A stretch of DNA of 64,000 nucleotides from Pseudobdellovibrionaceae bacterium. Lineage in GTDB: Bacteria; Bdellovibrionota; Bdellovibrionia; Bdellovibrionales; UBA1609. The translations under genes and the position numbers were made by a program. The notes under the pieces are model-generated. The model was given only the letters and a program-made list of their open reading frames with translations, ran no database searches and was not told the DNA's origin. Below are positions 24,097-30,232 of this stretch, one piece after another (position 1 is the first letter of the stretch; each line of letters starts with the position of its first letter). The stretch covers positions 62,001 to 126,000 of the forward strand of contig CANEZP010000010.1 in the NCBI GenBank assembly GCA_947444305.1. Reading direction: 5' to 3'.

Positions 24097-25026
24097 GTGA
24101 ACCCGTACATCATCCTCTCCGCTTTGGTTTTGGTCTTTGGCCATCCCTTTTATGCCGCCGCCACCGAAGTGGATGACGTCACCTCGTACTACCAACCGTT
24201 AGCCGATTCGGAAGAACTCCTTAACGGCCGAGTGCAGTCGTTGATCACGGCGGCCAGGAAGTTCGAGCGTGGCTGCGACCGCCGGGCGCTTACCCAACTC
24301 GCGTCGACCCAGCTGATCGGCAATTTCTTTTACGGCGCGGTCGAATCTTTCGCCAATACTTCACCGCTGGTGGAGCGCGCCTACACGCCGGCCCATTTTT
24401 CGATTTACCGGGGGACAACGTATCAAGGCTCGATCGTCGATACCTTCGTCAACCTGGGTCCGTCCGTGAACGTCGCCGGCTTTCGCGTCGGCACCGATAA
24501 ACTGGGACACTTCATGGACATGGGTTTCGATCTCTATTCGCGGGAGATCCGGGGCGCATCGGTTGTCCAGTTGCTCGCGCAGAGCCGCCGCGAAGAGAGC
24601 GGTTGGTGGGGCCTGTACATGACCGGCGTCAAATCGTACGGCGACATCGCTTCGAACTTCGACGGGTACCGCTTCTGGAAAGAGTTTAGCGAAGCGGGCC
24701 CGCGCCAATATTTCGAATGTGACCGGGGCCGCCTAAAACAGGTTCGCAGATTCAAATGGTCGGATTACATCAGCGCGGCGTGGTCCGAAGCGATCAATTG
24801 CAGTGAATATTCAGACGCACCCTTTGCCGCGACGGTCGCCGCCAATATCGGGGCTTTAGAAAATGCGAACGCCGGCTTCCGTTACGCATGCCCCATCGCG
24901 CCTGAACAATGTGATATCTTAAAAAAGTATTACGAACGCTGGATCCCGCGCCGGCACATCGCGCAGATTATCTCTCCGCTTTGTTTAAGCTCGGGCCGAG
25001 AGCGGAAGCAAAACTTCGAATACTGA
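24097..25026 (+). CDS. Exported protein with DKLGHF motif, unknown function
   Basis: A 309-residue protein starting at GTG 24097, 32 bases after lgt. It has a signal peptide (ends near Y-A-A-A, residue 22). The motif GTDKLGHFMDMGFDLYSR resembles the D-K-x-x-H-F core of small exported DUF2279-like proteins and may be membrane-peripheral. Further Cys at six places suggest disulfides. I do not recognise a full-length family. Its last 42 bases overlap the convergent sensor-kinase gene. Confidence 0.6.
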   Translation: MNPYIILSALVLVFGHPFYAAATEVDDVTSYYQPLADSEELLNGRVQSLITAARKFERGCDRRALTQLASTQLIGNFFYGAVESFANTSPLVERAYTPAHFSIYRGTTYQGSIVDTFVNLGPSVNVAGFRVGTDKLGHFMDMGFDLYSREIRGASVVQLLAQSRREESGWWGLYMTGVKSYGDIASNFDGYRFWKEFSEAGPRQYFECDRGRLKQVRRFKWSDYISAAWSEAINCSEYSDAPFAATVAANIGALENANAGFRYACPIAPEQCDILKKYYERWIPRRHIAQIISPLCLSSGRERKQNFEY

Positions 25027-26520
25027 ACCTTGCCCGGCGACCGAACTGACCCGGATTTGTCCGTGGTGCGCGTGCACGATCTTGCGGCTAATGTAAAGCC
25101 CTAGCCCTAAACCACTGACCGTCGACGGCGAAACCGCCCGCTCAAAGCGGTCGAAGATGCGTTGCAAGTTCTCCTGCGCGATCCCGATGCCTTGGTCTTC
25201 CACGGCGACAACGGCAAAACCGTTTTCCTTACCGACGCTGAGGCGAACCGGTTTGCGATCACCGTATTTGATCGCGTTGGTGAGTAGGTTAGACAATACC
25301 TGCTCAAGCCGGTGCCGGTCACAGGTGACGTGCAGTTCTTCATCGGCGTCGATGTTCAATTCAACGCCCGCGCTGCGGAATTGGTCTTCGAACGAAAGTG
25401 CCACTTCGCGGACCACGCGTGAGATCTGTGCTTCTTCCATATCGAAGTTTAATTGGCCGGTTGAGATGCGTGAAACGTCGAGCATGTCGTCGATCAGAGT
25501 CACGAGCTGATTGATTTGGCGGTTACCGACGTCGGCTAAATTTTTAAGATAATCTGCTTTGGGAACGTGGTCGGGACCTTTTTGTAATTGGCGGCTTAGC
25601 ATTTGTAACTGGAGCTTCAACGAAGTTACCGGCGTTTTCAATTCGTGCGAGGCGATGGACAAAAACTCATCGCGTGAGCGCACGGCTTGCTTTTGCTCTT
25701 CGATGTCGATGCACACGCCTAAATAACCGCGGAAAATTCCGGCGTTGTCGTAGTAGGGGGTGCCGTTGTCCAAAACCCAGCGGTACGCACCCGAGCGGTG
25801 AAGCAACCGGAAGTCCGAAGAGAAAGGGCGGCGCGCGGCCAATGCTTCGCGGTAGGTACGTGCGGAATCCTCACGGTCATCGGGATGAACGCAACTGTCC
25901 CAGCCCACCGCGAGCTGTTCCTCACCGGTCCGGCCGAAGAAATCAAGGCAGGCTTTATTAAACCACGACGAGTGGCCACCGCGATCGGCGATCCAAATCA
26001 TCGCGGGGGCGGCCTCGGCCATCAGGTGAAAGCGTGCTTCGCTTTCGAGCGCGGCGACCCGCTTGCGGCTCAGGTAGCTCTCGGCGAAAAAATCAATTTT
26101 CGGGCGCAGGATTTTTGGGTTAATCGGTTTCACGATATAATCGACCGCGCCGACTTCGTAACCGCGCTCGGCATAACCGTTGTCGTGATCGATCGCGGTG
26201 ACGAACACGATCGGGGTTCTGTAGTCGGTCTCGAGCGCGCGGATACGGCGCGCGGTTTCGAAGCCGTCGATTTCGGGCATCTGGACATCGAGCAAGATCA
26301 CGGCGAACTCGTGCAGCCGCGCGAATTCAATCGCTTCTAAGCCCGAGCGCGCTTTTACCAAATGATAATCCGGCGAATCTAAGATGGCTTCGAGCGCCGT
26401 AAGATTGGGTTCGTGGTCGTCGACCATCAGAATATTTACGGTGTGCGGAAACGCGCGCGGATTTATCTCGCGGTGGGAATTTTCCGTTAGTGAGGCGTCG
26501 AAATCATTCTGGCTTTGCAC
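24985..26520 (-). CDS. Hybrid sensor kinase REC-PAS-HisKA-HATPase (paralogue 1)
   Basis: A 511-residue cytosolic protein. The receiver domain lies at about residues 27-145 (phospho-Asp in VILLDVQMPEIDG), the PAS domain at about 160-280, HisKA with H-E-L-K-T-P at about 295-350 and HATPase_c with N-x-x-x-N-A-I-K-Y-G and G-L-G-L-G to the end. The N-terminal receiver means it is probably switched by phosphotransfer from another kinase and then signals through its own transmitter. It follows a paralogue by 15 bases, and both come after a stand-alone receiver. Confidence 0.88.
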   Translation of the reverse strand: MQSQNDFDASLTENSHREINPRAFPHTVNILMVDDHEPNLTALEAILDSPDYHLVKARSGLEAIEFARLHEFAVILLDVQMPEIDGFETARRIRALETDYRTPIVFVTAIDHDNGYAERGYEVGAVDYIVKPINPKILRPKIDFFAESYLSRKRVAALESEARFHLMAEAAPAMIWIADRGGHSSWFNKACLDFFGRTGEEQLAVGWDSCVHPDDREDSARTYREALAARRPFSSDFRLLHRSGAYRWVLDNGTPYYDNAGIFRGYLGVCIDIEEQKQAVRSRDEFLSIASHELKTPVTSLKLQLQMLSRQLQKGPDHVPKADYLKNLADVGNRQINQLVTLIDDMLDVSRISTGQLNFDMEEAQISRVVREVALSFEDQFRSAGVELNIDADEELHVTCDRHRLEQVLSNLLTNAIKYGDRKPVRLSVGKENGFAVVAVEDQGIGIAQENLQRIFDRFERAVSPSTVSGLGLGLYISRKIVHAHHGQIRVSSVAGQGSVFEVLLPLSARA

Positions 26521-26535
26521 CCGTAAAAAATACCG

Positions 26536-28059
26536 TCAACGTTGGACTCCCGCAACATTTTCGAGGTCCAGGGGTAAGCTCAATTTAAAAGCGGAACCTT
26601 CGTTTGGCCGGCTTTCGACCGAGATGATGCCTTCGTGCAGATCCGCGATTTGGCGCGAGATGAAGAGGCCTAAGCCCATCCCGCTATAATTGCTCGGAGA
26701 AACGGCACGTTCAAAACGTTTAAAAATACGTTGCTGGTCTTCGGCGGGAATCCCGATGCCGCGGTCGACGACCGTCACCTCGGCGTGACCGGCGTTTTCG
26801 CGCAGTGTAATTTCAATTGGTTTACCTAACCCATACTTAATTGCGTTATCGATCAAGTTCACGAGAACTTGTTCAATGCGGTCCGGGTCAACGTGCCCTT
26901 TAACTTCTTCGGCTAAGTTCAGTTTCCAGTCTTCGCGTTTGATCGTCGGGTTAGCCTCGAACAAGTCGACGGCCTTACGGACGAGCGCGGCCAAATCGAC
27001 TTCACGCGCCTCGATCGTGACCTTGCCGGCCTTGATCGACGAAATCTCGAGGAGCTGATTGACCCGGCGATTGAGTAAGTCCACTTGCGCGGCCGAGACG
27101 CCGAGCATGCGGTTGACCGTTTCGGGCGGCATGCGGTGCAGCTCGCCACGTTTTGCTAATCGCTGGAAGCCTTCGATCTGGAGTTGAAGGGGAGTGAGCG
27201 GGGTTTTGAGTTCGTGCGACGCAATCGAGATGAACTCGTCACGGATCACGATCGTTTCCCTTAACGATTGCTCGGTTTTCTTGAGCGAAGTGATGTCGAA
27301 GGATAAACCCCTGTGTTCGAGGTCGCCGCGATGTTCACCCGTGCGGATGGTGGTGTGCATCCACATTTCCGTACCGTCGGCCCTAATTACCCGGTGTTCG
27401 AAATCGACGTGGCCCGCGCCCGCGAGCAGGCTACCGATCGCGGTGCCTACCGTTTCCACGTCGTCGGGGTGACTAATCATTATCAGGAAATACCTGCGCG
27501 CCGACCAGTCCCGCGCGGGGTATCCCGAAATTTTTTGGGCGGAGGAGCTGACGAAGTTGAATACGCCGTTATCCGCGATCGAAGTCCAAACGATGCCGTT
27601 CGGGATGCCTTCGACGAGATCGCGGTAGCGTCGCTCGGCGCTTTCGACGTTCCTGACGGCCTTGATCTCGACTTCGCGTTTGCGCTGAAATAGTTCGACC
27701 AGCACGGAGATTTTCGCGCGCAGAATATTGAGGTTTAAAGGTTTGAAAAGAAAGTCGACGGCGCCGGCTTCGTAGCCGCGCATGGCATACGATTGGCCTT
27801 GCTTAATGGCGGTGATAAAAATGATGGGCGTGTGAATGCCGCGCGCCCGCACCCAAAGAGCGGTTTCGAAGCCGTCCATGTCGGGCATATGCACGTCGAG
27901 TAAAATCGCGGCGCACTCTCGCTCGCAGAGCACCTCAATGCCTTCTTTGCCCGAACCCGCGGTGATGAGGTCGAAGTTGCAATCCTCTAAAGCGGCCTTA
28001 AGCATGAAGAGATTTTGCGGTTCATCGTCTATGGCGAGGACAACCGGGCGCGTGTTCAC
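26536..28059 (-). CDS. Hybrid sensor kinase REC-PAS-HisKA-HATPase (paralogue 2)
   Basis: A 507-residue protein with the same order of domains as its downstream neighbour: receiver (about 5-125; AILLDVHMPDMDG), PAS (about 150-270), HisKA (SHELKTPLTPL, about 285), HATPase (NLIDNAIKYG; GMGLGLFISRQ). The two kinases look like a tandem duplication. The first 4 bases overlap the stop of the upstream receiver gene, so the three genes form an operon. Confidence 0.88.
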   Translation of the reverse strand: MNTRPVVLAIDDEPQNLFMLKAALEDCNFDLITAGSGKEGIEVLCERECAAILLDVHMPDMDGFETALWVRARGIHTPIIFITAIKQGQSYAMRGYEAGAVDFLFKPLNLNILRAKISVLVELFQRKREVEIKAVRNVESAERRYRDLVEGIPNGIVWTSIADNGVFNFVSSSAQKISGYPARDWSARRYFLIMISHPDDVETVGTAIGSLLAGAGHVDFEHRVIRADGTEMWMHTTIRTGEHRGDLEHRGLSFDITSLKKTEQSLRETIVIRDEFISIASHELKTPLTPLQLQIEGFQRLAKRGELHRMPPETVNRMLGVSAAQVDLLNRRVNQLLEISSIKAGKVTIEAREVDLAALVRKAVDLFEANPTIKREDWKLNLAEEVKGHVDPDRIEQVLVNLIDNAIKYGLGKPIEITLRENAGHAEVTVVDRGIGIPAEDQQRIFKRFERAVSPSNYSGMGLGLFISRQIADLHEGIISVESRPNEGSAFKLSLPLDLENVAGVQR

Positions 28060-28427
28060 GCCGAAAGCTTCTGGATCGTTTCGAGGAGCAGCTCAAGCTT
28101 GAGCGGTTTGGGCAGGTAAGCGTCGGGGCGGACCGAGCGGGCAATTTCACCGAAGGCGGAGATGACGATCACCGGGATTTTCGCGAAACGCGATTCGGCC
28201 TTTTGGTAATCGAGAAAATGCCAACCGTTCATTCCGGGCATCATCATGTCGAGCACGATGACGTCGGGCGGTTCGCGGCGGAGGGCTTCGATACCCTCAC
28301 GGCCTTCGCGCGCGACGATGACGCGGTAACCCTCAAGCTCCAACAAGGTTTTCAAAACCCCGTTGATCGCGGAGTTGTCTTCGACAATGAGTACGGTTCG
28401 CTGTGCCGTAGTGCTTTGGTTTTTCAA
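28056..28427 (-). CDS. Single-domain response regulator
   Basis: A 123-residue receiver-only protein: acidic pair E-D near residue 17, phospho-Asp in VIVLDMMMPGMNGW (about Asp57), Ser in VIVISAF and Lys in YLPKPLKL. It is likely the phosphate donor/acceptor partner of the two hybrid kinases downstream (overlapping the first by 4 bases). No output domain, so it works as a shuttle or CheY-like effector. Confidence 0.9.
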   Translation of the reverse strand: MKNQSTTAQRTVLIVEDNSAINGVLKTLLELEGYRVIVAREGREGIEALRREPPDVIVLDMMMPGMNGWHFLDYQKAESRFAKIPVIVISAFGEIARSVRPDAYLPKPLKLELLLETIQKLSA

Positions 28428-28605: not shown

Positions 28606-29199
28606 ATGAAGATGAAAAGAATCGTTCTGCTTTTGTCCTTAACGTTGAGCGCCGCGGCGCATGCCGATCAAGCTCCCGCGTGGCAGCAAAAACTCGAAGC
28701 TTACAAAGTGAGCTTGGATCAATCGACGAACGCCGGTTTACAGGTGCGTCAAGGTTACTACATCGGCGCGGCCGTTACGACTTGCGCGTTGAGCACGGTC
28801 GTCACCGGTGCAACCTTCGTCGCCGACACCGTTCCGTTGACCAGCATCCTCGGTGAAGGATTGGCGAACGTCGCGAATCCCGATTACATGACTTACAAAC
28901 AGATTATGGAGTGGGAAACGTTGGCGGGCATGGGCCGGGGGACCGTCGGCGGCGCGGGCGTGGCCGTGATCGAATCTTTAGAATTCGTAGTGCTCTGGCT
29001 CGCCGGTAACGAAACGCAAGCTTTCGAAGGTTTGAAAAAGAACTACGCGTCGTCTTTCGCGACGATGGAATCGCTGTTCGCTCAGCAAGGCCAATGCATG
29101 ATGAATATTTCGAAGGTATTGATCACGCGCGCCGAAATCGCACGCCGCGGTCAATTGCCCAGCCCGATGCGCGTGCCGGTCGAAGTCAATCGCCCCTAG
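28606..29199 (+). CDS. Exported protein of unknown function (197 aa)
   Basis: It has a signal peptide (ends A-H-A near residue 20). There are two in-frame ATGs at 28606 and 28612; GGAGGGAA precedes, and spacing suits the second slightly better. The mature protein has Gly/Val-rich hydrophobic helices (about residues 55-85 and 105-135), one with a TTCALSTVVTG segment, so membrane association is possible. Two Cys. I do not recognise a family. Its TAG overlaps that of the convergent histone gene (CTAG). Confidence 0.55.
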   Translation: MKMKRIVLLLSLTLSAAAHADQAPAWQQKLEAYKVSLDQSTNAGLQVRQGYYIGAAVTTCALSTVVTGATFVADTVPLTSILGEGLANVANPDYMTYKQIMEWETLAGMGRGTVGGAGVAVIESLEFVVLWLAGNETQAFEGLKKNYASSFATMESLFAQQGQCMMNISKVLITRAEIARRGQLPSPMRVPVEVNRP

Positions 29200-29723
29200 T
29201 TTTTCTTAAGGAAAGCAAAGTCGCGGTCCATGACGGTCTTACGGCCGTCGGCCCGCGCGTTCTCGATCGCTCGGTCGCAAATCACCCGCACTTGATCACT
29301 AAGAACTTCGGCGACGTTGCCGGAAGTGTTCATCTCACCGCGGGCTTGGATATACTCTTTCAATCTTGAAGCGATGATTAAAACTTCGCGTGGAATTCCC
29401 GCGGCCGTCGCCGGTCTATTGATCACGGCCGCTCCCGCGGGCGGAGCCGAGTTTGCGTTTATGATTTTGCGGGTAGGATCGCGGTGGGCTTCGCTTTGCG
29501 TAGCGGGCTCGGCTCGCATGGGCGCTTTCATCTCGATCGCGGCGGCGTCTTTGTGGCGCGCGGCCGGTAGATGCACCTCGAAACAGCCGACGCTATCGAA
29601 TACGTAACCCGTGCGCTGTCCGTTGCAGGTCGAAACGCTGCACACGTAATACTTCGCGCCGAGCGCGATCGGTTTCTTGCAAGAGCTGCATTTCTTCCAG
29701 AAATTCTGCGGCGTCGCTTCCAT
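29196..29723 (-). CDS. Zinc-finger histone-fold protein (ZZ-histone-like)
   Basis: A 175-residue cytosolic protein. N-terminal part: C12-x-x-C15, C28, C33, C47, H51 and H57, a layout able to bind one or two zinc ions. Then a disordered Pro/Ala linker (about 60-108) and a C-terminal histone fold (about 112-175): helix IPREVLIIASRLKEYI, loop, long helix SGNVAEVLSDQVRVICDRAI, and the L2/alpha3 hallmark G160-R-K-T-V-M-D-R-D-F, as in archaeal histones. Bdellovibrio histones of another type are known; prokaryotic histones with a zinc-binding head have been described as a separate class. It would bind DNA as a dimer. GAGG lies 6 bases before the ATG. A DUF4112 gene precedes it by 20 bases. Confidence 0.82.
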   Translation of the reverse strand: MEATPQNFWKKCSSCKKPIALGAKYYVCSVSTCNGQRTGYVFDSVGCFEVHLPAARHKDAAAIEMKAPMRAEPATQSEAHRDPTRKIINANSAPPAGAAVINRPATAAGIPREVLIIASRLKEYIQARGEMNTSGNVAEVLSDQVRVICDRAIENARADGRKTVMDRDFAFLKKN

Positions 29724-29743: not shown

Positions 29744-30232
29744 CTATGGCGCCCAGCCGCCGTTTTCAAGCGAGAGGATGATCCAGCGGATCACGAAGAA
29801 CGAGACGACGATGCTGCCCACGACCATCGCTAAGATCAGCGCGACCGCGAAGGCTAAGACGAACTTCGAATTACGCCGTACCCGGTTAGGCTCCTGCAGA
29901 TAACGCTCGACCAAAATCATGTTTTTGCTGTTGGCCTTCCACACGAAGTCGAACAGGTTGCCGACGATCGGGATGATGTCGACGAGATTTTCGATCGCCA
30001 GGTTAAGACCCATGCGCACGATCACGCTAGGGGGGCAGCCGACCTGCGCCGCCCGCAAGATGACATAAACAGAAATACTATTTGTGACCACGTCGCCGAG
30101 CACCGGCACTAGCCCAAGCACGCCGTCCCAGCCGAAACGCCAGCCGAACGGGCCCTTGAAATGGCGGTCCATTACGTCGGCGATTTTTTTTAAGTCGTTA
30201 ACATTTGCAACGGGAGCGTTCGACATCGTCAT
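29744..30232 (-). CDS. DUF4112 membrane protein
   Basis: A 162-residue protein with the DUF4112 signature: an early D-x-x-F-x-x-P-F-G-W-R-F-G-W-D followed by GLVPVLGD, a hydrophobic region with ENLVDIIPIVGNLFD, and one strong C-terminal membrane helix (about 125-152). The biochemical role of the family is unknown. It lies upstream of the histone gene by 20 bases on the same strand, so they are probably co-transcribed. Confidence 0.85.
   Translation of the reverse strand: MTMSNAPVANVNDLKKIADVMDRHFKGPFGWRFGWDGVLGLVPVLGDVVTNSISVYVILRAAQVGCPPSVIVRMGLNLAIENLVDIIPIVGNLFDFVWKANSKNMILVERYLQEPNRVRRNSKFVLAFAVALILAMVVGSIVVSFFVIRWIILSLENGGWAP

Follow-up and report, generated by a model that had tools for sequence, protein, structure and literature searches.

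A ZZ histone from a relative of Bdellovibrio with an aspartate at a zinc-ligand position and a recurrent linker motif

Bacterial histones in which a ZZ head is joined to a histone fold were defined as ZZ histones, within the alpha3 subgroup, by Schwab et al. 2024 (PMC11390915), and the 2025 paper on HLp counts them as one of five alpha3 subfamilies (PMC12701072). In Bdellovibrio bacteriovorus, low transcript and protein levels were reported for the ZZ histone, and the residues that form the peptide pocket of eukaryotic ZZ domains were described as not conserved in the class (PMC11390915). The B. bacteriovorus member, Bd3044, was listed in 37% of Bdellovibrionota genomes by Hocher et al. 2023, who inferred that it does not readily replace Bd0055/HBb (PMC10627809). 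HBb (PDB 8cmp, 8fvx, 9ezz, 9f0e) is, in contrast to these proteins, a single histone fold without a zinc head or linker, and it is both abundant and probably essential, while low abundance is reported for the ZZ histone. In the literature searched, no experiments on a purified ZZ histone were found.

The ZZ histone gene and its histone fold

The window, that is, the whole stretch of 64,000 nucleotides analysed here, belongs to a genome of 4.17 Mb in 29 contigs. The features relevant to this work are the following.

28606-29199, plus strand: ORF of 197 aa with a signal-peptide-like start and without a Pfam match, convergent to the ZZ histone gene
29196-29723, minus strand: ZZ histone gene (Bd3044-type), 175 aa, assigned from the ORF, phmmer to HBb, orthologue identity and the AlphaFold2 model
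29199-29393, minus strand: C-terminal histone fold, residues 111-175, with RKTVMDRD at 161-168 (phmmer, profile, AlphaFold2, Foldseek)
29394-29519, minus strand: disordered linker, residues 69-110 (pLDDT below 50 at 76-90 and 98-103)
29451-29480, minus strand: linker motif R-K-I-I in DPTRKIINAN, residues 82-91 (4-mer statistics)
29520-29723, minus strand: N-terminal ZZ-type domain, residues 1-68 (ligand columns in 91 sequences; top 19 Foldseek PDB matches)
29595-29597, minus strand: codon 43 (GAT, Asp) at the eighth ligand position, which holds Cys in 89 of 91 sequences
29744-30232, minus strand: DUF4112 membrane gene (Pfam E 3.2e-30), 20 bp upstream of the ZZ histone gene

The ZZ histone ORF, which an earlier sequence-only reading had placed at these coordinates, proved to be real. 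Its ATG start is preceded by the purine-rich AAAGGACGAGG and its stop codon lies at 29196-29198; the tetranucleotide CTAG at 29196-29199 forms the overlapping stops of this gene and the convergent 197-aa ORF. The encoded protein consists of an N-terminal domain of a two-zinc type, a disordered linker of about 42 residues and a C-terminal histone fold. Its best matches were a protein of B. bacteriovorus kdesi, an orthologue with 66% identity (L046), and proteins of uncultured Bdellovibrionales, which places the window genome near Bdellovibrio, and in the phylogenetic tree the protein was nested among Bdellovibrio-type sequences. The gene product is almost certainly a ZZ histone and an orthologue of Bd3044 from B. 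bacteriovorus. It shares with Bd3044 and the other published ZZ histones a ZZ-type domain at the N-terminus, in which seven of the eight C4 and C2H2 ligands are kept, a fold of the bacterial-dimer type and an occurrence in the same bacterial groups. The little-studied class to which it had been assigned beforehand can accordingly be given its name, ZZ histones, published in 2024.

Searched against the PDB with phmmer, residues 112-170 matched HBb of Bdellovibrio (8cmp) with an E-value of 4.8e-13 and the Leptospira histone HLp (9qt0) with 1.9e-5, and a profile built from 42 sequences matched HBb with an E-value of 5.6e-19. The AlphaFold2 model, predicted from a 42-sequence alignment, placed the helices of the histone fold at residues 118-129, 137-158 and 166-172, with block means of pLDDT from 81 to 95 and a short third helix. 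In Foldseek, the model superposed on HBb, including DNA-bound HBb, with an rmsd of 0.9-1.0 Å and 47% identity in the structural alignment. The sequence matches and this superposition together indicate a histone fold of the bacterial-dimer type, which has the RKTVM loop and the short third helix in common with HBb. The histone fold claimed for residues 112-175 was thus borne out by phmmer, the AlphaFold2 prediction and Foldseek. Its description as archaeal-type was imprecise, since among solved structures the bacterial dimer histone HBb comes closest. The Pfam model CBFD_NFYB_HMF (PF00808), searched with the single sequence, gave an E-value of 0.1 and 13.4 bits, below its cut-off of 21.4 bits, and the score against the NCBIfam model archaea_histone was also below the cut-off. 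With its short third helix, the fold corresponds to bacterial HBb and falls short of a full archaeal nucleosomal histone.

The RKTVMDRD loop and the basic helix-1 residues R120, K122 and R128 were retained in the window protein, and helix 1 was without some of the lysines found in HBb. The net charge of the histone domain was +2, with a family median of +1. On account of this low charge and the lost lysines, DNA binding may be weak. Both features would also suit an adaptor or peptide reader whose histone fold mediates dimerisation, in the manner of TAFs, and whose work lies away from DNA, and so would the low expression reported for ZZ histones (PMC11390915) and the nature of ZZ domains as protein-interaction modules, the closest structural matches of the head including N-degron readers. 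This explanation deserves weight but is unlikely, because the DNA-contacting RKT loop of HBb-type histones is kept in the window protein and in most relatives, including those found with the head profile only, and because HBb, the closest solved relative, binds DNA. The invariance of KTVMDRDF in the alignment is partly by construction, since the patterns with which the set of loci was fetched included KTVMDRDF; relatives found by other routes varied at this position (KTVMARDF, KTLMDRDF and KTVLDRDF).

The zinc-binding head and its eighth ligand position

All seven Cys and His residues previously pointed out in the head (C12, C15, C28, C33, C47, H51 and H57) were present, and they were invariant among 91 distinct sequences. 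When the published ZZ-histone model is followed (PMC11390915), C12, C15, D43 and C47 form the presumed site 1, and C28, C33, H51 and H57 form site 2. The window protein therefore keeps seven of the eight ligands of the C4 and C2H2 set, and the eighth position is Asp43, unlike the Cys of published ZZ histones. Asp was found at this position in two of the 91 sequences, namely the window protein and L011 (identical to L133). Two separate changes to Asp43 were reconstructed in 200 of 200 bootstrap trees. The branches with good support require only one of them by themselves, which leaves a single origin as the less likely case, and the Cys-to-Asp change has apparently arisen twice independently in this alignment. 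Asp serves as a zinc ligand in some cross-brace fingers. The retention of the seven other ligands together with the same replacement occurring twice would favour a metal site that is kept, with Asp43 as a possible substitute zinc ligand.

The head was predicted by AlphaFold2 as a compact domain (mean pLDDT 84). The first 19 PDB structures matched by Foldseek were all ZZ domains, with probabilities of up to 0.96, and several of them had been solved with bound peptides. These best structural matches came from the eukaryotic proteins p62/SQSTM1, HERC2, BIG, KCMF1 and PRT1, yet the head was only 13-24% identical to them and the best E-value was 0.09, none reaching 0.001, so the matches are suggestive only. 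The sequence profile of the head gave nothing significant against the PDB, and among the Pfam zinc-finger models only sub-threshold matches were obtained (zf-FLZ, zf-FCS, MYND and C1_2); as a consequence, the ZZ assignment rests on structure. The proposal of a ZZ-type zinc head thus agrees with the structural matches and the conserved ligands, whereas the sequence profiles stay below threshold. Compared by structure with viral proteins, the head gave no significant match. The order of the ligand pairs is the same in the head and in eukaryotic ZZ domains; C-x2-C is usual in ZZ domains, and C-x3-C is present in the ZZ-histone head. For the ZZ histone of Haliangium, the C4 ligands are listed as C20, C23, C51 and C53 in the legend of Fig. 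4 of PMC11390915. From the C-x3-C spacing of the last pair in the aligned sequences, C55 would be expected where this legend prints C53, which may be a misprint.

The linker and its motif

The linker varied in length from 23 to 80 residues across the family. In a count of 4-mers with a reduced alphabet, [RK][RK][IVLM][IVLM] occurred in 47 of 81 linkers, compared with 1.0 expected from shuffles that ignore the relatedness of the sequences. As an internal control, every other 4-mer was found in at most 9 of the 81 linkers, barring overlaps and extensions of the motif. The motif mostly took the form R-[RK]-[IV]-[IV] and was seen in loci of both Bdellovibrionota and Myxococcota, its conserved basic-hydrophobic character pointing to a putative binding role of the linker. 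It is present in the window protein and in many of its relatives, and mention was found neither of this motif nor of Asp at the eighth ligand position in the main text of the ZZ-histone paper (PMC11390915).

One clade of ZZ histones (L016, L018-L022 and L024) was without a motif of the RR[IV][IV] type. Its linkers were acidic, and S-E-R-[ED]-[KR]-F-[IV] was common to most of its members.

Gene neighbourhood, companion histones and proposed role

The DUF4112 gene next to the ZZ histone gene is genuine, lies on the same strand across a gap of 20 bp, and is probably co-transcribed with it in the window genome. On this adjacency the sequence-only reading had based a coupling of the two products, by which the histone and the membrane protein may anchor chromatin at the membrane or link it to a stress response. 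The pair was not conserved between genomes. An iterated HMM search of the ORFs of the 45 other ZZ-histone loci found DUF4112 in none of them, a few contigs ending so close to the ZZ histone gene that not every upstream side is visible. With the Pfam model, DUF4112 was found in 4 of 47 family genomes, the window genome included, and was missing from the other 43. None of three congeners carrying the ZZ histone had it. The three further family genomes with DUF4112 are not congeners of the window genome, and no histone was located near the gene in any of them; one genome (G003) carries both DUF4112 and a ZZ histone, on different contigs. In the congener G026, two ABC-transporter genes with 72% and 67% identity to those of the window are kept about 4 kb upstream of the ZZ histone, yet the gene immediately upstream encodes a SAM hydroxide adenosyltransferase and DUF4112 is absent. 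The neighbourhood in B. bacteriovorus differs from both. Given these absences across loci, family genomes and congeners, the partnership is unsupported, and so is the link from chromatin to membrane, which we regard as highly improbable. Judged by gene order, DUF4112 is a local neighbour by coincidence and not a conserved partner.

Across the 46 loci no other conserved neighbour was found, only groups confined to one clade. A downstream Nudix gene, apparent in several loci, failed as a candidate when the protein from L030 was searched in all loci. A phage or plasmid origin of the ZZ histone was also rejected, since searches of phages, plasmids and viral contigs gave no match. In the window, the minus strand at 24985-28427, downstream of the ZZ histone, carries a pair of neighbouring genes for response-regulator/histidine-kinase hybrids together with a single receiver-domain gene, and a large hybrid kinase precedes the ZZ histone in G026 (L166).

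Of 141 genomes in the order, 58 each yielded one ZZ histone with the head profile, and relatives occurred in Myxococcota MAGs as well. The window genome additionally encodes HBb and three genes of the HU/IHF family. The histone folds of its HBb and ZZ histone are 41% identical, a similarity that would be compatible with heterodimers through which the ZZ histone would bring a reader head into HBb chromatin. An HBb-like histone was present in all 14 family genomes with a ZZ histone and in 22 of the 33 without (Fisher p 0.02), a co-occurrence that agrees with such pairing but has genome size as a confounder, since most of the genomes lacking both are small. Across bacteria, only about half of the proteomes with a ZZ histone contain a second histone (PMC11390915), and heterodimerisation with HBb appears improbable.

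Around the domains, HBb homology, ligand conservation, linker motif and co-resident HBb and HU/IHF genes described above, the reading that we favour, with some confidence for the identity and mechanism taken jointly, is that of a minor architectural adaptor. The histone fold would pair into an HBb-like dimer that binds DNA and bends it locally. Such a dimer would carry two ZZ heads, each tethered by a flexible linker of about 40 residues and occupied by zinc with Asp43 as a substitute ligand, and the heads could capture a peptide on another protein. With a low abundance, as suggested by the published Bdellovibrio data, the ZZ histone would act beside the abundant HBb and the HU/IHF proteins and not as a bulk DNA packager. 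A more specific proposal, which is speculative and carries slightly less probability than the pairing with HBb, holds that ZZ histones read bacterial chromatin. Anchored to DNA via the histone fold of a homodimer or an HBb heterodimer, the head would recognise a peptide, R-[RK]-[IV]-[IV] would act as a docking or self-inhibitory element, and the repeated Cys-to-Asp change would tune the metal site.

Histones of bacteria that carry a reader-like domain form a described class whose function is so far putative. The DUF4112 partnership was a tempting but false lead and has now been removed. For work on the class, the conserved motif of the linker and the natural replacement of a Cys ligand by Asp, which has apparently arisen twice, provide two concrete handles. 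If it is true that ZZ histones read peptides on DNA, they would constitute a bacterial counterpart of the chromatin readers of eukaryotes.
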